A DNA stretch of 64,000 bases, from positions 1 to 64,000 of the forward strand of contig JAUXUK010000105.1 of assembly GCA_030680805.1 (NCBI GenBank), written 5' to 3'. The notes under the pieces are model-generated. The model was given only the letters and a program-made list of their open reading frames with translations, was not told the DNA's origin and did no database searches. Every line of letters starts with the position of its first letter. The first letter of the stretch is position 1. Of the stretch, positions 21,362-32,179 are shown one piece after another. The DNA is from Sulfuritalea sp. Lineage in GTDB: Bacteria; Pseudomonadota; Gammaproteobacteria; Burkholderiales; Rhodocyclaceae. The translations under genes and the position numbers were made by a program.

Positions 21362-21457
21362 TGGCGGAAGAGAGCGGGAGTCGAACCCACCAGAGACCGC
21401 ATGGCGACCTCTGCCGGTTTTGAAGACCGGCCGCCCCACCGGGGAACGTTCTCTTCC
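21362..21457 (-). tRNA. selC: tRNA-Sec (anticodon TCA), selC
   Basis: A 96-base tRNA with the selenocysteine-specific build: an 8-bp acceptor stem (GGAAGAGA with TCTCTTCC), discriminator G, encoded CCA, long variable arm (AGAGGTCGCCATGCGGTCTCT region) and anticodon loop CTTCAAA, giving anticodon TCA that reads UGA. It lies 12 bp downstream of selB on the same strand, making selA-selB-selC one compact cluster. Confidence 0.97.
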
Positions 21458-21469
21458 TTTGTATACTTT

Positions 21470-23407
21470 TTATTGGTTCAGCCATGCGTGGGTCGAACTG
21501 CTGCTGCGTACTACATGCTCGTCACGCACGCGGCGAGTGTAGCCGATGCGATCAAAGAATTCGAGGATGTGGATCGCTACCTTGCGCCCGCCGCCGATGC
21601 GGTCGCGCAGGTCGGCGGCACGCGCCGCGCCGTTCGCTGCGGTGAGTTCGGCGACGAAGGCGGCGAGTTGCGAGACGGCATCGGCCGTGAAGTAGTGGTC
21701 GTGCGCCACCGGATAGAGTTCGCCGGCGCGCGCCACGCGGCGGAACAGCTGGCGCACGACGTCTTCGGCGGTGCCCGAGTCGCGGGCGATATCCCTCACG
21801 CGCGGGGGGCCGAAGGGCTGGGCGGCGAGCAGCGGCTTCAGTACGGCGAACAGGTCGCGGTCCCCCGCTGCAAGGCTGGCCTCATGCTCGGGCAGATGCA
21901 GCCAGGCGCGTGCGGCGGCAAGGCGGCCGGCGCCGAGCAACTCGGCGACTAGGGCATCGAACGCGGCACGCGCCAGGGTCGGCAGCGTCAAGCGGCGCAA
22001 GCGCTCGCGCTCGACCCCGACCATGTCCGGTGCACGCTGGTGCTCGGTGGCCAGTGCTGCGAGCAGCCTTTCGCTTAGCGCCTGCCATCCCGCTGCGGCA
22101 AAGCCGATCTGTTCCTCGCCGCTGCGCACGACGCGCAGGTTCTCGGTTTGCCACAGCGTCGCGGCTGCTTCGTCGGCCAGATTCCAGTTGGCGGCAAACC
22201 GTCCCAGATCGATGCCGGCGGCGGACTGTTCCGCGAGCAGGCGCAGGCTCGTCGCCGGGTCATCGTCGCGCAGCGCATTCAGCAGCGCCAGCCGCTGCGG
22301 GCTGCGCTTGTGCCGCGAAGGGGGAAAGCAGTCGAGCACACGGCCGCCGCCGATGCTGCGTTGCGCCGAGGCATCGCGCAGCACGAAGCGGTCACCGCGC
22401 ACCGCGAGGGTTTCGCGATCCAGCAGGATTTCCGCCAGCGCGCGGGTGCCGGGCGCGAGCAGATCGCCTTCCAGCAAGGCGACGCGGCCGGTGATGTCGG
22501 CGGCGCCCAGATGGACATGCACCGGCGTCCAGTGCTTCAGCGCCGGCTGCGTCGCGGGAACGTGGATCTCGGCCTGGAAGCGCAAGAGTGGCAAATGCGG
22601 TGGCCGCGCCGCGGCGGGGTCGACCAGCCACATGCCGCGCTCGATGTCCTTCTTTTCAAAATCGCCGGTCAGCGCCAGCGCGCAGCGGTCGCCGGCCTGC
22701 CCGTGTTCGGCTGGCCGGTCCTGCACATGCAGGCTTTTCACCCGCGCCTTGAGTCCATCGCGGCCTGCGGGCGCAATGATCGCCGTGTCGCCAGCGCCGA
22801 CTTTTCCCGAGAAGGCGGTGCCGGTAACGACGGTGCCGATGCCCGAGAGCGTGAAGCAGCGGTCGATGGCGAGTCGGAAACGGCCGTTGGTGTCGCGCGC
22901 CCGATGCGCGGCAGCAACCGCGTCGAGATGCGCGCGCAGGGCTGCCACGCCTTCGCCGGTCGTTGCCGACAGCGCAAATACCGGGCTGTCTTCGAGGCGC
23001 GTCCCGGCCAGCAATGCTGCGATCTCGCCACGCGCTTCGACGACACGCGCCGCATCGACCGCATCGCATTTGGTCAGCGCCACCGCGCCGTGGTCGAGGC
23101 CGAGCAAACCCAGTAGTTCGAGATGTTCGCGCGTCTGCGGCATCGGCCCGTCGTCGGCGGCGATCACCAGCAGCACAAAGTCGATGCCGGTGGCGCCGGC
23201 CAGCATGTTGTGGATCAGTTTTTCATGGCCCGGTACGTCGATGAAGCCGAGCACCGAACCGTCGGCCTGCGGCGCGTAGGCATAGCCGAGGTCGAGCGTG
23301 ATGCCGCGCGCCTTCTCTTCCGGCAGGCGGTCGGCATCCACGCCGGTGAGCGCCTTCACCAGCGTGGTTTTGCCGTGGTCGATGTGACCCGCGGTGCCGA
23401 TGATCAT
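21470..23407 (-). CDS. selB: Selenocysteine-specific elongation factor SelB
   Basis: A 645-residue GTPase that carries Sec-tRNA to UGA codons by binding the SECIS hairpin in the mRNA. G1 [14 protein letters not shown]3 DVPGHE and G4 LTKCD are at the N-terminus; the C-terminal ~270 residues hold the four winged-helix units that bind SECIS RNA (e.g. [40 protein letters not shown]). The stretch [11 protein letters not shown] in domain 2 is encoded by a near-perfect copy of the dispersed 24-bp repeat (22781-22805). It overlaps selA by 4 bases. Confidence 0.97.
22781..22805 (+). repeat. Dispersed 24-bp repeat, copy 4 (inside selB)
   Basis: CGCCGTGTC followed by GCCAGCGCCGACTTTT, one mismatch from copy 2, read on the minus strand as KVGAGDTA. 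Confidence 0.85.
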
Positions 23408-24801
23408 GCGCGAATGTCCAGTACCGCCAGCGACGCGGCGAACTCGCCTTCTTCCTGCGGCTGAAGGCAGCGCAAGTCGAGCAGCAGCGCGCCGTCTTCG
23501 ATGCGGCCGATGACGGGTTTCGGTAGTGCGCGCAAGGCCGCCTCGATGCGGTTCAGCACGCCGCTCTTGCGGCCCTGCGGACGGATCGCGAAGCCGGCCG
23601 ACGGCAGGCGATTCACCGGCAGCGAACCGGAGCCGATCTGCGATTTCAGCGCAACGATTTCCGCGGTTACCGGAAGTGCAGCTAGCGTCGTACGCAACGC
23701 CGGCAGCAGGCGCGCGGCCTGCGCCGCGATGTCCGTTTCGGGCCGCGTCAATTGGCGCACGGCGGTGACGCGCAGGTGCAGGCGGTCGGGATCGCGGTAG
23801 AGCGCCAGCACCGCCTCGAGCGCTGCCAACGTCAGTTTGCCGACGCGCAGGGCGCGCTTCAGCGGGTTCTTCTTGATCTTTGCAATGAGGTCCTTGCGGC
23901 CCACCAGCAGGCCGGCCTGCGGCCCGCCCAACAGCTTGTCGCCGGAGAATGTGACGAGGTCGGCGCCGGCGGCTATGGCTTCGCGGGGCGTCGGCTCGTG
24001 CGGCAGACCGTAGGCGGCGAGGTCGACGAGCGTGCCGCTGCCCAGGTCAATGACGAAGGGCAGATCGTGCTGGTGCGCCAGCGCCGCGAGTTCGGCTTCC
24101 GGTACCGCATGGGTGAAGCCGTGGATGGCGTAGTTGCTGGCATGCACCTTCATCAGCATCGCCGTGCGCGGGTTGATGCTCTCGGCGAAATCCTTGAGGT
24201 GGGTGCGGTTGGTGGTGCCGACTTCGACCAGTTTCGCTCCGGCGCGACTCATGATGTCGGGCACGCGAAAGGCACCGCCGATTTCGATCAGTTCGCCGCG
24301 CGAGACGATCACCTGCTTCTTCTGCGCCAGCGTGTTGAGCAGCAGGAACACGGCGGCGGCGTTGTTGTTCACCACGGTGGCGGCTTCGGCGCCGGTCAGT
24401 TCGCAGAGCAGTTCATCGACCACGTTGTCGCGATCGCCGCGACCGCCGGATTCGATGTCGTACTCCAGTGCGCAAGGGCTGCGTGCAGCGGCAACCAGCG
24501 CCTGCACCGCTTCCTCGGGCAGCGGCGCGCGGCCGAGGTTGGTGTGCAGCACGGTGCCGGTGAGGTTGAACACCGGGCGCAGCTTCGGCCGCATTTTCGC
24601 CGTAACGCCAGCGCCGACTTTTTCCAGCAGCGCGGATTCATTCGGCAAGGTGCCGCCGTCCTTGACAGCGGTACGCGTTGCAGCGAGAACGTCGCGAATG
24701 GTGTCGGCGACCACGGCGCGACCGTGAACGTCGGACAGGGAGGCGAGCGCCGCAGAAGACAGCAGGCGGTCGACGGAAGGAAGCTGGGAAAGTGGGTTCA
24801 T
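23404..24801 (-). CDS. selA: L-seryl-tRNA(Sec) selenium transferase
   Basis: A 465-residue PLP enzyme that converts Ser-tRNA(Sec) to Sec-tRNA(Sec) with selenophosphate. LTGTVLHTNLGRAPLPEEA, VVNNNAAAV and the PLP-lysine motif TFSGDKLLGGPQAG are diagnostic. N-terminal residues around LLEKVGAGVTAKM are encoded by a copy of the dispersed 24-bp repeat (24598-24621). The gene is divergent from the HPP gene with ~105 bp between them. No selD was found in the window. Confidence 0.97.
   Translation of the reverse strand: MNPLSQLPSVDRLLSSAALASLSDVHGRAVVADTIRDVLAATRTAVKDGGTLPNESALLEKVGAGVTAKMRPKLRPVFNLTGTVLHTNLGRAPLPEEAVQALVAAARSPCALEYDIESGGRGDRDNVVDELLCELTGAEAATVVNNNAAAVFLLLNTLAQKKQVIVSRGELIEIGGAFRVPDIMSRAGAKLVEVGTTNRTHLKDFAESINPRTAMLMKVHASNYAIHGFTHAVPEAELAALAHQHDLPFVIDLGSGTLVDLAAYGLPHEPTPREAIAAGADLVTFSGDKLLGGPQAGLLVGRKDLIAKIKKNPLKRALRVGKLTLAALEAVLALYRDPDRLHLRVTAVRQLTRPETDIAAQAARLLPALRTTLAALPVTAEIVALKSQIGSGSLPVNRLPSAGFAIRPQGRKSGVLNRIEAALRALPKPVIGRIEDGALLLDLRCLQPQEEGEFAASLAVLDIRA
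24598..24621 (+). repeat. Dispersed 24-bp repeat, copy 5 (inside selA)
   Basis: CGCCGTAAC followed by GCCAGCGCCGACTTT, read on the minus strand as KVGAGVTA. Confidence 0.85.
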
Positions 24802-24907
24802 GATTTCACCCGGACCGGGCAGAAACGAGATGGCGTTATTCTATTGGCTTCACCCGCGCTTTGCACGTCGAAAGTCGACCTTGCGCGGGTCTAAAGGGGA
24901 GCGAGCA

Positions 24908-25666
24908 ATGACCATGAGCAATCCGGCGACGCAATCGCCGTGGCAGCAGATGCTGGGTATTGAATTCAGCCCGGTGAGCCATCGCGAACGGTGGGTATCG
25001 GCGCTGGGCGGCTTTGTCGGCTTGCTCGTGATCTATTTCGTCAGCCATGCCGTGGGCGGCCCGCCGTCGGCGCCGCTGCTGATCTTTTCGATCGGCGCCT
25101 CGACCATCCTGGTGTTCGCAGTGCCGCACGGGGCGCTCTCCCAGCCCTGGCCGGTGTTCGGCGGGCATCTGGTTGCGGCGCTGATCGGCGTCGCCTGCGC
25201 CCGGCTGGTGCCGAACGCTGCACTCGCCGCGGCGCTGGCAGTGGGCCTGACCATTGTCGCGATGCATTACCTGCGCTGCATCCATCCGCCCGGCGGGGCA
25301 ACGGCCCTGGTGGCCGTGCTCGGCGGCCCTTCGGTGCAGGCGCTGGGCTTCGGTTTCGTGCTGGCGCCGGTGCTGCTCAATGTGCTGTTGTTGCTGGCGG
25401 CGGGGGTCGCCTTCAATGCGTTCTTTCCCTGGCGCCGCTACCCCGCTTTCCTCGCCCGCCAACCCGCTGTGCCGGAAGCCGCCGTCGGCTATGCGGCGAT
25501 TTCGCACGGGGACTTCGTCTTTGCCCTGACGCAGATGGATTCCTTCATCGATGTTTCCGAAGACGACCTGCTGCGCATCTACGGCCTGGCGACCGGAAGG
25601 CACCGCGAGATGGAAGAGCAGGCGGCCGCAGCCGCCCGCACCGTCAACTCTTCTGCGCCGCCTTGA
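24908..25666 (+). CDS. HPP-family inner-membrane protein
   Basis: A 252-residue membrane protein of the HPP family, named for the motif seen here as IHPPGGATAL. About five hydrophobic helices occupy residues ~35-175, followed by a soluble C-terminal tail of ~75 residues. Plant and cyanobacterial relatives are implicated in nitrite transport, but most bacterial members are uncharacterised. ATG 24908 follows AAAGGGGAGCGA. It is divergent from selA, and its last 23 bases overlap the convergent end of the thioredoxin-like gene. Confidence 0.85.
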   Translation: MTMSNPATQSPWQQMLGIEFSPVSHRERWVSALGGFVGLLVIYFVSHAVGGPPSAPLLIFSIGASTILVFAVPHGALSQPWPVFGGHLVAALIGVACARLVPNAALAAALAVGLTIVAMHYLRCIHPPGGATALVAVLGGPSVQALGFGFVLAPVLLNVLLLLAAGVAFNAFFPWRRYPAFLARQPAVPEAAVGYAAISHGDFVFALTQMDSFIDVSEDDLLRIYGLATGRHREMEEQAAAAARTVNSSAPP

Positions 25667-26135
25667 AGGCGGGGAAGTCCATCTTGCGGTAGTGCTTGCC
25701 GGAGACGAAGCGGTCAAGCAGCAAGGCGTCTTCCGGGCTCCTGAAGCCGCCGCGAACGCGGGCGACTTCCTTGCCCTGTGCATCGAGGAAGACCAGCACC
25801 GGATGGATGCCGCTGCTGTTGTGGCGGGCGATCACGGCGTGCTTGGGATCCTTTGCGGCAAGCTCACTGAAATCGACATGGGTGCTGACATAGTTCTTTG
25901 CGTACTGGCGGCTGACGTCGGGCTGGCTGAGCACACTCACGGTGTAGCGGCAGGCCCCTCAGTGCTGGTAGTCGCCGAAGTAGAGCATCACGTGGCGCTC
26001 CGGCGTCTTGGCGATCTGGACCAGCGCTGCCTTGTCGTCGGCGGCCAGGGTCAGCACGCCGTCGAGCCGGTCGGCGGCATGCGCCGGCAGGCTCAGCGCG
26101 GCGGCGATGGCAAACAGGGAAAGCAGGTGTCTCAT
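25644..26135 (-). CDS. Putative selenoprotein: periplasmic thioredoxin-like protein with U-G-A-C motif
   Basis: A 163-residue protein if the in-frame TGA at 25959-25961 is read as selenocysteine (residue 59). A Sec-type signal peptide (MRHLLSLFAIAAALSLPAHA) and a thioredoxin fold of the SoxW-like type follow: RHVMLYFGDYQH, then U-G-A-C, RYTVSVLSQPDVSRQYA, a cis-Pro region GIHPVLVFLDAQGKEVARVRGG, and a C-terminal helix. Sec falls exactly where the first Cys of CxxC belongs, and the reading frame is conserved-looking on both sides. ATG 26135 has GAGGAG upstream. A SECIS-like hairpin follows the TGA at the standard distance. Neighbours are selA/selB/selC on one side and fdhE-fdn on the other. 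Likely a periplasmic thiol/disulfide oxidoreductase. The alternative is a nonsense-mutated gene. Confidence 0.82.
25920..25958 (-). promoter_or_regulatory. Candidate SECIS element of the thioredoxin-like gene
   Basis: Directly after the TGA, ten bases precede the hairpin GCTACACCGTGAGTGTGC (25931-25948): a GC pair, a bulged U, the ACAC/GTGT stem and loop CGTGA. A lower stem is possible (GGGC with GCCC, CTG with CAG). The E. coli fdhF SECIS likewise has ~11 bases, a bulged U and a small loop containing GU. No folding program was run. Confidence 0.65.
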
Positions 26136-26268: not shown

Positions 26269-27192
26269 TCAGCCTCCCGGCACCAGCAGCAGGTTCGGCC
26301 CGCTGCGGGCATAACCCGCTTCGTCAACCAGAATATCCAGCGCCAGCGTGGCGAGATCGTCGGCCACCGGGTCAACGGTATCCTTTTCGGAATAGACGAT
26401 CTTGAGATAGCTCTTGCACGACTCGCAGGTCTCGGCGCGCACGGCGCCGGCGGTCTTGATGTCGTCGCTTTCGAGATGGCGATAGCTGATGCCTTCGTTG
26501 GCGTCGCAGGCGCTGCATTTGACGCGCACCAGGTTCCATTCGGTATTGCACAAGGCGCAGTGGAGATAGCGCAGGTTGCTGGTCTCGCCGGCGCCGCGGA
26601 CGATACTGGCGACCGGCAGAAAGCCGCAGCAGGGGCAGACGCCGGGGACGTCGAGCGAGACGACGTCGCGGTCGCCGAGGCGCGCCGCGCCGGCCGTCCA
26701 CAGCACCTGCAGGGCAGCGGCGACGTAGGGCAACAGGGCCGCGTCTTCGCCATACAGTTCGGTGTGCAGCACGCGCTCGGCCAGCGCCTCGATGCGTTCG
26801 GCATCCATGCCCGCGAGGCGGGCCAGGTCATTGCGGGCCGGTTCGGGCGCGGCAGGGGAGACGGCGGCGATGATTTGCAGCAGGCTCTGGCGCCAGGCCG
26901 GATCGCGCGGCCAGGACTGGGCCGGCAGCGGCGGCATGCGATGCTCGCGGGCGCGGGCCAGTTCGGCCGCATCGGGCAGCGCCAGCGCCGGCAGCGATTG
27001 CAGCGCCTCATGCTGGGCGCGGGTGATGGCAGCGAGAAAACGCAGCCAGTCGGCCAGGGTGTGGCCTTCGGCGAGTTGCTCGAAGCGCTGCGCACGGGTG
27101 GCGAAGATCGTCTTTGCGTCGGGGGCGATGACGTGCGGCGGCTCGCTGCTCGACTTGATCGGGATGATGGGGGTTTGTGCTGTGGCGCTCAT
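26269..27192 (-). CDS. fdhE: Formate dehydrogenase accessory protein FdhE
   Basis: A 307-residue cytosolic, rubredoxin-like iron protein needed for assembly of respiratory formate dehydrogenases. The C-terminal half carries the paired Cys motifs of the family: CPCCGF, CALCNTEW, CSACDANEG and CESCKSYLKI. ATG 27192 is preferred, although no strong ribosome binding site is visible; an upstream in-frame TTG is possible. It lies just after the terminator of the fdnGHI operon in the same direction, so it has either its own promoter or read-through. Confidence 0.95.
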   Translation of the reverse strand: MSATAQTPIIPIKSSSEPPHVIAPDAKTIFATRAQRFEQLAEGHTLADWLRFLAAITRAQHEALQSLPALALPDAAELARAREHRMPPLPAQSWPRDPAWRQSLLQIIAAVSPAAPEPARNDLARLAGMDAERIEALAERVLHTELYGEDAALLPYVAAALQVLWTAGAARLGDRDVVSLDVPGVCPCCGFLPVASIVRGAGETSNLRYLHCALCNTEWNLVRVKCSACDANEGISYRHLESDDIKTAGAVRAETCESCKSYLKIVYSEKDTVDPVADDLATLALDILVDEAGYARSGPNLLLVPGG

Positions 27193-27217
27193 TGTTTTCG
27201 GACAATCCGTGGGAGAC

Positions 27218-27246
27218 AAAAAACCCGCGGGCCGAAGCCCGCGGGT
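27218..27246 (-). terminator. Terminator between fdnI and fdhE
   Basis: On the minus strand the stem CCCGCGGGC/GCCCGCGGG with a 4-base loop ends in six T's. It would end the fdnGHI transcript before fdhE. Confidence 0.85.
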
Positions 27247-29076: not shown

Positions 29077-32000
29077 TTAGATCTTCTCGATGTTGACCAG
29101 GAACGCCTTGAATTCCGGCGTCTGGCAATTGGCGTCGCCGACGAACGGCGTCAGCGTGTTGGTGATGAAGCCCGGCTTGGTGACCCCCTTGAAACCGAAG
29201 TGGATCGGGATGCCCACGGTATGCACTTTCTTGCCGTCGACATCCAGGGTCGGAATGCGCTTGGTGACGACGGCCACCGCCTTGATGAAGCCGCGGTTGC
29301 TGCGCACCTTGACCCGGTCGCCGTTGGCAATGCCCTTTTCCCTGGCCAATATCTCGCTGATCTCGACGAACTGTTCCGGCTGCAGCACGGCGTTGATCTT
29401 CGCGTGCTTGGTCCAGTAGTGGAAGTGCTCGACCAGGCGGTAGGTGGTGCAGACGTAGGGGAAGTCCTTGGCCTTGCCGAAGGTTTCCATGTCACCCTTG
29501 TACACCCGCGCCGCCGGATTGCTGATGGCTTTCGGGTTGTTGGGGTGGAACGGATTCCTGTCCAGCGGGGTCTCGAAGGGCTCGTAGTGCTCGGGGAAGG
29601 GACCTTCGGCCATGGCCGGCGCGAACAGCCGCGCCACGCCTTCCGGCGTCATGATGAAGGGCATCACCCCTTCTTCCGGCGCCGCGTCGGGCCGCATGTC
29701 GGGCACGTCGTTGCCGCCCCAGGCCGTGCCGGTCCAGCGGATCACCGCGCGTTTCGGATCCCACGGCTTGCCGGCCATGTCGCACGAGGCGCGGTTGTAG
29801 ATGATGCGCCGGTTGGCCGGCCAGGCGAAACCCCAGTTCAGCGTCTGCCCCAATCCCGAAGGATCGGAGTTGTCGCGCCGTGCCGTGAGGTTGCCCGCCT
29901 GCGACCAGCTTCCGCCGTAGATCCAGTTGCCGCACTGGGTGGAACCGTCGTCGCGCAACTGGGCGAAGCCGGCGATCTGCTCACCCGGCTTGACCAGCAC
30001 CTTGGTCTTGTCCTTCGGATCGAGCACCTCGCCCAGGGCCTTGCCGGAGATTTCCATGAGGAGCTCTTCCGGCGCGGGCTTGGCGGGGATGCGGTAGGGC
30101 CAGGTCAGGTTGAGTATCGGCTCGGGCAGCTTGCCGCCGTCCTTGGCATACATCGCCTTGAGCTTGAGGAAGATCGACGCCATGATTTCGATGTCGCCCT
30201 TCGACTCGCCCGGACCATCGGCCGCCTTCCAGTGCCACTGGATGACGCGTCCCGAGCTGGTGAAGCTGCCGGACTCTTCGGCGAAGAGGTTGGCCGGCAG
30301 GCGGAACACTTCGGTCTGGATCTTGGTCGGATCGACCTCGTTGAACTCGCCGTGCGGCTTCCAGAACTCGGAGGTGTCGGTCGCCAATGGGTCCATGATG
30401 ACCAGGAACTTGAGCTTGGCCAGCGCGTCGCCGACCTTCTTCTTGTTCGCCACCGAGGCCAGCGGATTGAAGCCCTGGCAGAAGAAGCCGTTCATCTTGC
30501 CCTGATGCATGCGCTCGAACATCGCCAGGGTGTCGTAGGCGCCATCCTTCTTCGGCAACCAGTCGTAGCCGAAGTCGTTCTTGTCGGTCGCCGCCGCCCC
30601 GTACCAGGCCTTTTGCAGACTGGTGAACCACTTCGGGAAGTTCTGCGGGAAGTTCATCTGGTTCGGCCGCAGTGCCTTGGGCGTGCGCTTTTCCAGATAA
30701 GTCTTGCGATCGACGTCCTGGTCGGTCGGCGCCGACAGGTAGCCGGGCAGCACTTCCGAGTAGAGACACATGTCGGTGATGCCCTGCACATTGGCGTGGC
30801 CGCGCAGCGCGTTGATGCCGCCGCCCGCCATGCCCATGTTGCCCAGCAGCAGCTGGATCAAGGCCATGGTGCGGATGTTCTGCGAGCCGACCGAATGTTC
30901 CGTCCAGCCCAGCGCATAACAGATCGTCATGGTCTTGTCGGGCGCCGCGGTCTCCGCCATCATTTCGCAGATCTTGAGGAAGGCGTCCTGCGGCGTGCCG
31001 GTGGTCTTGCTCACCAGTTCCGGCGTGTAGCGGCTGTAGTGCTTCTTCATCAACTGGAAGACGCAGTTCGGGCTTTCCAGGGTCGGGTCGATCATCGCAA
31101 ACCCGTCCTTGCCCATCTGGTATTTCCAGGTGTCCTTGCCGTAACTGCGCTTCTCGGCGTTGTAGCCGGAGAACAGGCCGTCATCGAACGCGAAACCCTC
31201 GTCGATCAGGAAGGCGGCATTGGTGTAGTTCTTGACGTACTCGTGATGGATCTTGTCTTTCGACAGCAGGTAGTTGATGACGCCGCCAAGGAAGGCGATG
31301 TCGCTACCGGCGCGAATCGGCGCGTAGAAATCTGAAACGGCGGCGGACCGCGTGTAGCGCGGATCGACCACGATCAGCTTGGCCTTGCGATCCTTCTTCG
31401 CTTCGATGACCCATTTAAAACCGCAGGGATGCGCTTCGGCGGCATTGCCGCCCATGACGATCACCAGGTCTGAATTCTTCAGATCGACCCAATGATTGGT
31501 CATTGCACCACGCCCAAATGTCGGACCCAGACTGGATACCGTGGGGGCGTGTCAAATACGTGCTTGCGTGTCTAGTGCGACGATACCGAGGCTGCGAAGG
31601 GTTTTTACCGTGATATAGCCGGACTCGTTGTTGGCGGCCGATGAAGCGAGGAAACCGGTGGTGTTCCAGCGATTCACCGTGACGCCGTCGGCGTTCTTCT
31701 CGATGAGGTTGGCGTCGCGGTCCTTCTTCATGTGGGTGGTGATGCGGGTGATCGCCTCGTCCCACGAAATGCGCTTCCACTCGTTGCTGCCGGCTTCGCG
31801 CACTTCCGGGAACTTGATCCGGTTGGTGCTCTTGACCATGTCGAGCAGGCCGGCGCCCTTGGCGCACAGCGTGCCGCGATTCACGGGATTATCCGGATCG
31901 CCCTCGATGTGGATGATGTCCGCCTTCGAATTCTTGGACTTGTCGCCCGTGGTGTAGATCAGGACCCCGCAGCTCACCGAGCAGTAGGGACACATGTTGC

Positions 32001-32139
32001 GGGTTTCCGTGGCGCGGGCGAGCTTGTAGCTGCGCACCTCCGCCAGGGCCGATGTGGGTGAGAATCCCATCAGTGCGATGGAAGACCCGCTCAGACCGGC
32101 GCCGCAGACCTTGAAGAACTGTCGCCGTGTGACTTGCAT
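29077..32139 (-). CDS. fdnG: Formate dehydrogenase-N catalytic subunit, selenocysteine-containing (alpha)
   Basis: A 1020-residue periplasmic molybdopterin enzyme oxidising formate for respiration, read through the in-frame TGA at 31552-31554. A Tat signal (VTRRQFFKVCGAG) and a [4Fe-4S] motif (CPYCSVSCGV) start the protein. Sec is residue 196 in TQARI-U-HAPTVSSLGPTFGRG, the same position and context as E. coli FdnG (Sec196). The sequence stays in frame on both sides and ends KAFLVNIEKI as in relatives. ATG 32139 follows AAGGAGGAG. Expression fits a sigma-54 promoter at 32180-32195. Conventional calling would split this gene at the TGA. Confidence 0.97.
31509..31551 (-). promoter_or_regulatory. 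SECIS element of fdnG
   Basis: Immediately after the TGA, CACGCCC pairs perfectly with GGGCGTG across ~29 bases that contain the CCAGTCTGG apical region with the G-U loop bases expected for SelB binding. Position and shape agree with E. coli fdnG. Confidence 0.88.
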
Positions 32140-32179
32140 TTTTTGACTCCTCCTTTTTTGTATACCAAGGGACAATCAA

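Follow-up and report, generated by a model that had tools for sequence, protein, structure and literature searches.

A very probable selenoprotein with a predicted thioredoxin fold encoded beside selA and selB in Sulfuritalea-like bacteria

Introduction

When a single TGA interrupts an otherwise continuous thioredoxin-like gene, does it end the protein or is it read as selenocysteine (Sec)? This question is raised by a locus in Sulfuritalea sp., on contig JAUXUK010000105.1. The stretch analyzed, called the window here, comprises 64,000 nucleotides (positions 1 to 64,000 of the forward strand). An earlier note, made from the letters alone, had pointed to a minus-strand gene of this kind and had proposed that it encodes a new or under-recognized selenoprotein. 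We refer to the gene and its product as U-Trx. The proposal was examined by comparison with homologues, RNA folding, structure prediction and a survey of the surrounding genes.

Results and Discussion

The interrupted reading frame

The U-Trx frame runs from 26135 to 25644 on the minus strand, with a gaggag sequence ahead of its ATG. It contains a single interruption, a TGA at 25959-25961, and its terminator is also a TGA. The read-through product would have a hydrophobic leader, the stretch HVMLYFGDYQH-U-GAC-RYTVSVL, a P112-VLVFLD stretch and then the C-terminal part. In a motif of the C-x-x-C type (U-G-A-C), the interrupting TGA stands where the first Cys would be. Thus, the frame, the TGA as codon 59, the motif, the downstream continuation to a normal stop and the N-terminal leader (judged by eye) are all present as first described. 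Standard annotation would split or truncate this gene.

U-Trx lies between fdhE and selA, with fdnGHI and fdhE upstream and selA, selB and tRNA-Sec downstream. The Sec machinery that had been reported nearby was confirmed, with selA, selB and tRNA-Sec within 5 kb of U-Trx and an fdnG with a SECIS_3 element upstream. The features of the window are as follows.

25644..26135, minus: U-Trx, very probable selenoprotein gene, 163 codons with Sec as codon 59, plus the TGA stop (frame reading and homologues)
26073..26135, minus: probable signal peptide, residues 1-21 (leader recognized by eye from its hydrophobicity)
25959..25961, minus: in-frame TGA, read as Sec codon 59, U-G-A-C motif (same alignment column in 30/30 distinct loci)
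25931..25948, minus: SECIS-like hairpin core, positions 14-31 counting the TGA as 1-3; bulged U16 is 25946 and loop G22-U23 is 25940-25939 (folding and conservation)
26269..27219, minus: fdhE (ORF and family match)
29077..32175, minus: fdnG-type formate dehydrogenase, Sec208 counted in the longest frame (SECIS_3 element at 77.5 bits)
24800..25666, plus: HPP-family membrane protein (PF04982), convergent, with a 23-base overlap with the 3' end of U-Trx
23404..24801, minus: selA (ORF; homologue downstream in 23/30 loci within the fetched flank)
21470..23407, minus: selB (483.6 bits to TIGR00475)
21366..21457, minus: tRNA-Sec (selC), anticodon tca (69.6 bits)

Conservation of the TGA and coding constraint

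The assembly to which the window belongs is only 86% complete, with 5.5% contamination, and the RNA fold after the TGA is unremarkable by energy alone. Both facts would suit a pseudogene or a sequencing error, with the TGA acting as a genuine stop in a damaged Cys-type thioredoxin. Homologues were searched for in a sample of 395 genomes of the window's family, and 81 genomes gave matches at 0.001. Close homologues were present in 26 of the 395: the window's own and 25 others at 52-69% identity and at least 155 bits. Every one of the 26 has an internal TGA at the identical codon, and none has Cys there. In the remaining 55 genomes, no match exceeded 47.1 bits. In one weak family match (G274), a TGA was considered as a Sec codon and rejected, since it is the ordinary stop of that gene. 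At one locus (L017), the match runs, besides the internal TGA, into its own TAG stop.

Thirty distinct loci were compared in detail, made up of the 26 family loci and four (L031, L032, L033 and L036) from a second collection of eight. Left out of the set were two loci on the same contigs as L004 and L006 (L034 and L035) and two distant Cys proteins (L037 and L038). The 30 loci were picked by protein similarity, not by the presence of a TGA. The TGA falls in a single alignment column in 30/30 loci, including one from a single-contig genome of the window's genus (G069). Uncorrected pN/pS over all pairs of the 30 loci was 0.43 upstream of the TGA and 0.43 downstream. Third codon positions were the most variable on both sides, and pS in the hairpin core described below was zero. 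The conserved in-frame UGA with coding sequence on both sides that marks bacterial selenoproteins is therefore found here. Because 30 loci share the TGA column and the pattern of selection is seen on both sides of it, chance or error is very unlikely, and with no Cys version among the 26 close homologues we consider a broken or misread gene very improbable. An alternative genetic code was also rejected, since TGA is the gene's own terminator in most homologues.

From these sequence comparisons, U-Trx is almost certainly a selenoprotein in which the UGA at codon 59 is decoded as Sec. This adds a well-supported selenoprotein family in Sulfuritalea-like bacteria.

A SECIS-like hairpin follows the TGA

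In the window, a hairpin starts ten bases past the TGA and, folded alone, forms a stem with a bulged U at position 16 and a loop CGUGA. Bases 13-32 are invariant across the 30 loci save loop base 25, which is A in 27, G in two and C in one. Codons +4 to +9 (CGC TAC ACC GTG nGT GTG) show zero synonymous variation, in 6/6 columns compared to 3/63 other well-conserved degenerate columns (Fisher p=7e-7, with the six codons chosen after viewing the alignment, for holding the hairpin). The Ser codon within the hairpin is AGT in 27/27 cases; elsewhere in these genes AGT accounts for 29/197 Ser codons. Since the Cys homologues that were examined do not have the RYTVSVL peptide, its conservation in U-Trx may reflect a demand of the RNA and not of the protein.

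The earlier description of this hairpin held for its start ten bases after the TGA, its bulged U and its GU loop, all of which are conserved, but the folding energy is unremarkable. In the window, it did not improve on dinucleotide shuffles at any of three lengths (z 0.09 to 0.99), so the fold by itself proves nothing and its support comes from comparison. Compared to synonymous shuffles, hairpin energies were modestly low (mean z -1.19 over the 30 loci), with one locus, L019, worse than its mean. Lower-stem pairing received modest support from a flank chimera test, in which 147 of 5000 shuffles were equally good. Covariation in the upper stem is uninformative because the upper stem is invariant. 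The six core pairs all occur in the minimum-energy fold of only 19/30 loci.

The bacterial SECIS model has a loop of 3-9 nt, a G in the first two loop positions, a spacing of 16-37 nt and an energy of -7.5 or lower (PMC13188914). We coded this rule ourselves, allowing bulges, and applied it to the minimum-energy folds. The folds of 28/30 loci, including the window, agreed with it, and those of L010 and L019 did not. Some of the 28 passing loci use another pairing, because the full core pairs in only 19/30 folds.

The E. coli fdhF SECIS has a bulged U17 and a loop G23-U24 (PMC8659212). Like it, the U-Trx element has a bulged U with an apical GU six and seven bases beyond it. Unlike it, the U-Trx element (U16, G22 and U23) lies wholly one base closer to the UGA. 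With its upper hairpin nearly frozen across the clade, the element provides a natural test of SelB recognition at this one-base offset from fdhF. The conservation is consistent with a mechanism in which the UGA at codon 59 would be decoded by SelB, carrying Sec-tRNA-Sec and bound to the hairpin at positions 14-31.

Another reading of the conserved block is that two proteins are made, the first stopping at the TGA and the second restarting at a conserved GTG (25938-25940), which opens a 98-aa ORF in the ORF list. The GTG codons at +7 and +9 are indeed invariant in 30/30 loci. However, conservation starts three codons ahead of the GTG and spans third positions on both its sides, and inspection by eye shows no ribosome site at a usual distance. 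A restart would also split the thioredoxin active site, leaving codon 59 and Cys62 before it and Pro112 after it. We regard such a restart as very improbable, and Sec decoding of the UGA remains the preferred reading.

Sec machinery in genomes with and without U-Trx

Among the family genomes, SelB was found in 26/26 carriers of U-Trx, as was SelD. A tRNA-Sec of at least 60 bits was present in 24/26 carriers and 95/369 non-carriers (Fisher p=1e-11, uncorrected for relatedness). The cut-off was put at 60 bits because almost every genome (393 of 395 at 0.001) gives some weaker tRNA-Sec match. The two carriers in which tRNA-Sec was not found, G339 and G378, are assemblies of 320 and 600 contigs that are 85% and 81% complete, and both have SelB. 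The sel genes that are looked for in the genome of a bacterial selenoprotein were thus found, with selB, selD and tRNA-Sec detected genome-wide and selA in the flanks of 23/30 loci.

Within the window's genus, 4 of 23 genomes are without U-Trx. Neither selB nor a tRNA-Sec of at least 60 bits was found in G181, G282 and G328, and three genomes of the genus retain selD without U-Trx. Since there is no close homologue with Cys, the gene seems to have been lost in such genomes, not converted to a Cys form.

Another genome of the genus without U-Trx, G242, has two tRNA-Sec (72.5 and 71.1 bits), two selB (481 and 359 bits) and a Sec-FdnG. At its locus (L045), fdhE, HPP, selA and selB are still together, and only the selenoprotein gene is missing from the block. 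SelD itself has one internal TGA in G126, G231, G260, G331, G362, G114 and G650, and in those genomes of the window's genus that were searched SelD is free of an internal TGA.

Relation to known protein families

Among Pfam models, Thioredoxin_2 (PF13098) matched the window protein best, at 24.7 bits, under the gathering cut-off of 27. In sequence set A2, 11/22 members match Thioredoxin_2 at E 0.01 or better (best 4e-6). The best NCBIfam matches of the window protein were TsoB (NF045694; 25.5 bits, cut-off 805) and DsbH (NF043050; 21.3 bits, cut-off 190), and no NCBIfam model reached its cut-off for any protein scanned. The window protein therefore reaches the cut-off of no Pfam or NCBIfam family model, in agreement with the suggestion that the family is under-recognized. 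The label "SoxW-like" given to it in the earlier note stays tentative: no SoxW-named model was among the Pfam and NCBIfam matches, and the nearest profiles were Thioredoxin_2, TsoB and DsbH, all below their cut-offs.

The earlier note had also asked what homologues carry at residue 59. Close homologues all have TGA there and none has Cys; distant homologues have a C-x-x-C motif at this site. As is looked for in a selenoprotein family, Cys stands at the Sec position, here in distant homologues only, namely in L049 (FCPPC) and in a CPFC family. The L049 protein (G765) matched at E=1.2e-18 over the first 145 residues. Profile comparison with the CPFC Cys family of Gammaproteobacteria (17 sequences) gave E=2e-25 over 164 columns. 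In this periplasmic CPFC-type thioredoxin family (for example L071 and L089), U59 aligns with the first Cys and C62 with the second. The families differ in that U-Trx is only about 25-33% identical to the CPFC type and has UGAC for CPFC, and the CPFC type is one residue longer after the motif.

The CPFC-type homologues L056, L071 and L089 adjoin outer membrane efflux (OEP) genes, and L089 also adjoins a gene for an AhpC-TSA/redoxin-type protein. These neighbors hint at a metal or efflux connection of the Cys-type family.

Samples of larger groups were searched with set A2, in a way that would miss weaker Sec members. At the level of the order (399 genomes at 1e-15), 14 genomes matched, and an internal TGA was found only in the window's own and in G650. 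A sample of the class at 1e-10 gave matches in 70/369 genomes, with an internal TGA in the window's own only. In a sample of the phylum at 1e-14, 2/329 genomes matched, the window's own and one without a TGA. A plasmid search gave no U-Trx match.

G650 belongs to another family and has a TGA at the Sec site (UAGC; profile match E=9.7e-17), and its genome has tRNA-Sec, SelB and SelD. Its hairpin has a bulged U16 and a loop GUCA, with an energy weakly better than that of synonymous shuffles (z -0.56 to -1.38). With a loop that begins 15 bases past the UGA, the hairpin narrowly misses the 16-37 nt spacing of the SECIS rule (PMC13188914). Because of this loop start and the non-significant fold, the G650 homologue is treated as a candidate Sec member only. 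In a 74-row tree, a branch with support 95/98 has the Sec proteins on one side; the G650 branch is very long (4.3) and its placement is unsure.

Many thioredoxin-fold selenoproteins with UxxC are listed in the portion available of a 2026 review (PMC13188914), including a PF13098 UxxC thiol:disulfide interchange protein, WP_011366075.1. This is the nearest entry there, since it shares UxxC with U-Trx and Thioredoxin_2 is the best Pfam match of U-Trx. It differs in that U-Trx is below the Pfam cut-off, a comparison with WP_011366075.1 that was made by description and not by sequence. The DsbD C-terminal domain and DsbH are among the best fold matches of U-Trx, and TsoB and DsbH are its best NCBIfam profiles. 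Unlike these proteins, U-Trx is far below the NCBIfam cut-offs and is without a fused membrane or rhodanese part. Our literature search found no paper on the U-Trx family, nor on thioredoxin-like selenoproteins or selenocysteine in Sulfuritalea. U-Trx is filed as a new family within the known UxxC thioredoxin-fold selenoproteins, although the WP_011366075.1 family may belong to the same Sec lineage.

Predicted structure and proposed chemistry

An AlphaFold model built with nine sequences reached medium confidence (mean pLDDT 67, pTM 0.62), with the other four models at 40-51; an earlier seven-sequence model was poor (pLDDT 42). Long stretches below 50 pLDDT are confined to residues 1-31. In the model, U59 lies ahead of a helix (60-69) and Pro112 ahead of a strand (113-117). 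With an E cut-off of 0.001, a fold search of the PDB gave 17 matches (TM by query 0.42-0.54), and 16 of these bear the name of a thioredoxin, DsbD, DsbH or disulfide protein. A thioredoxin-fold protein of H. pylori ranked first (E 3e-5), and C-terminal domains of DsbD were prominent (7e-5 to 3e-4). A PDB profile search of U-Trx gave nothing below E 0.038. The marks of a thioredoxin fold, that is, a fold match, a redox residue at a helix start and a proline before a strand, were thus all found on the predicted model. Together with the conserved TGA and the alignment to the Cys family, this medium-confidence thioredoxin-like model supports the original identification of a UxxC thioredoxin-fold selenoprotein.

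The leader peptide probably exports the product. In the predicted fold, Sec59 would sit at the N-terminus of the first active-site helix, with Cys62 as the resolving residue and Pro112 as the cis-Pro. Most likely, U-Trx would act as a periplasmic thiol:disulfide reductase or exchange protein, in which the Sec selenolate attacks a disulfide or a similar oxidized group. Cys62 would then resolve the intermediate, and a DsbD-like partner or a low-molecular thiol may re-reduce the protein. On homology and the predicted fold, a role in thiol:disulfide exchange is likely. The joint reading, Sec decoding together with exchange chemistry, is also probable. Any specific substrate that might be named for U-Trx would be doubtful.

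Gene neighborhood and the link to formate dehydrogenase

The position of U-Trx in the window, between fdhE and selA and below fdnGHI, had led to the idea of a tie to formate respiration. A selenoprotein specialized for this purpose would keep the periplasmic Sec formate dehydrogenase reduced or would repair it. The fdhE gene is upstream in 15/30 loci within the fetched flanks and farther off in L042 and L047, where longer stretches were available, and an FdnG match at 1e-60 was found in 18/26 carriers. However, no FdnG match at 1e-60 was found in the other 8/26 (G386, G394, G305, G378, G369, G008, G231 and G126), and none of the 53 molybdopterin-oxidoreductase matches in these eight has an internal TGA. 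Five of the eight genomes are at least 90% complete. Also, G242 has Sec-FdnG and selB and is without U-Trx. Since 8/26 carriers are without such an FdnG match and 0/53 matches have an internal TGA, U-Trx is seemingly independent of Sec formate dehydrogenase, and a specialized formate role is unlikely. The proposed tie is thus weakened, with selA-selB being the steadier neighbor.

In G205 and G317, the fdnG matches contain two internal stop codons (both TGA, or a TGA plus a TAG), which may come from match overrun or damaged copies.

The linkage to the sel genes is the basis of another proposal, that U-Trx serves selenium metabolism, for example by processing oxidized selenium species in the periplasm to supply SelD/SelA. 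The distance to selB on the same contig is at most 10.3 kb in 24/26 carriers and at most 4.2 kb in 21. SelA is downstream on the same strand in 23/30 loci within the fetched flanks, and in L007, L023 and L026 the U-Trx and selA matches are only about 50-65 bases apart on the same strand. On the other hand, the linkage may also mirror shared history, U-Trx and selB are on different contigs in G008 and G331, and selD is kept without U-Trx in the three same-genus genomes mentioned above. A dedicated selenium role is therefore held only tentatively and is on balance doubtful. Because the selA-selB linkage is steadier than the formate dehydrogenase linkage, a part in selenium or general periplasmic redox upkeep appears more likely than one in formate respiration.

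A convergent HPP membrane gene lies between U-Trx and selA in 17 of the 23 loci with selA downstream.

The eight genomes with U-Trx and no detected Sec formate dehydrogenase bear on what sustains the Sec trait. Among them, SelD is a TGA form in G126 and G231 and not in the other six. One conceivable, though speculative, account is that U-Trx is a Sec-obligate periplasmic thioredoxin-fold protein, with no Cys form seen in the clade and partnering SelA/SelB selenium metabolism, which in some species would be the selenoprotein that retains the Sec machinery after loss of the Sec formate dehydrogenase. G008 may be an example. This genome is 96% complete and has tRNA-Sec, SelB and U-Trx; no Sec formate dehydrogenase was found in it, and its SelD is without a TGA. 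In this genome, the selenoprotein maintaining the Sec system may be U-Trx.
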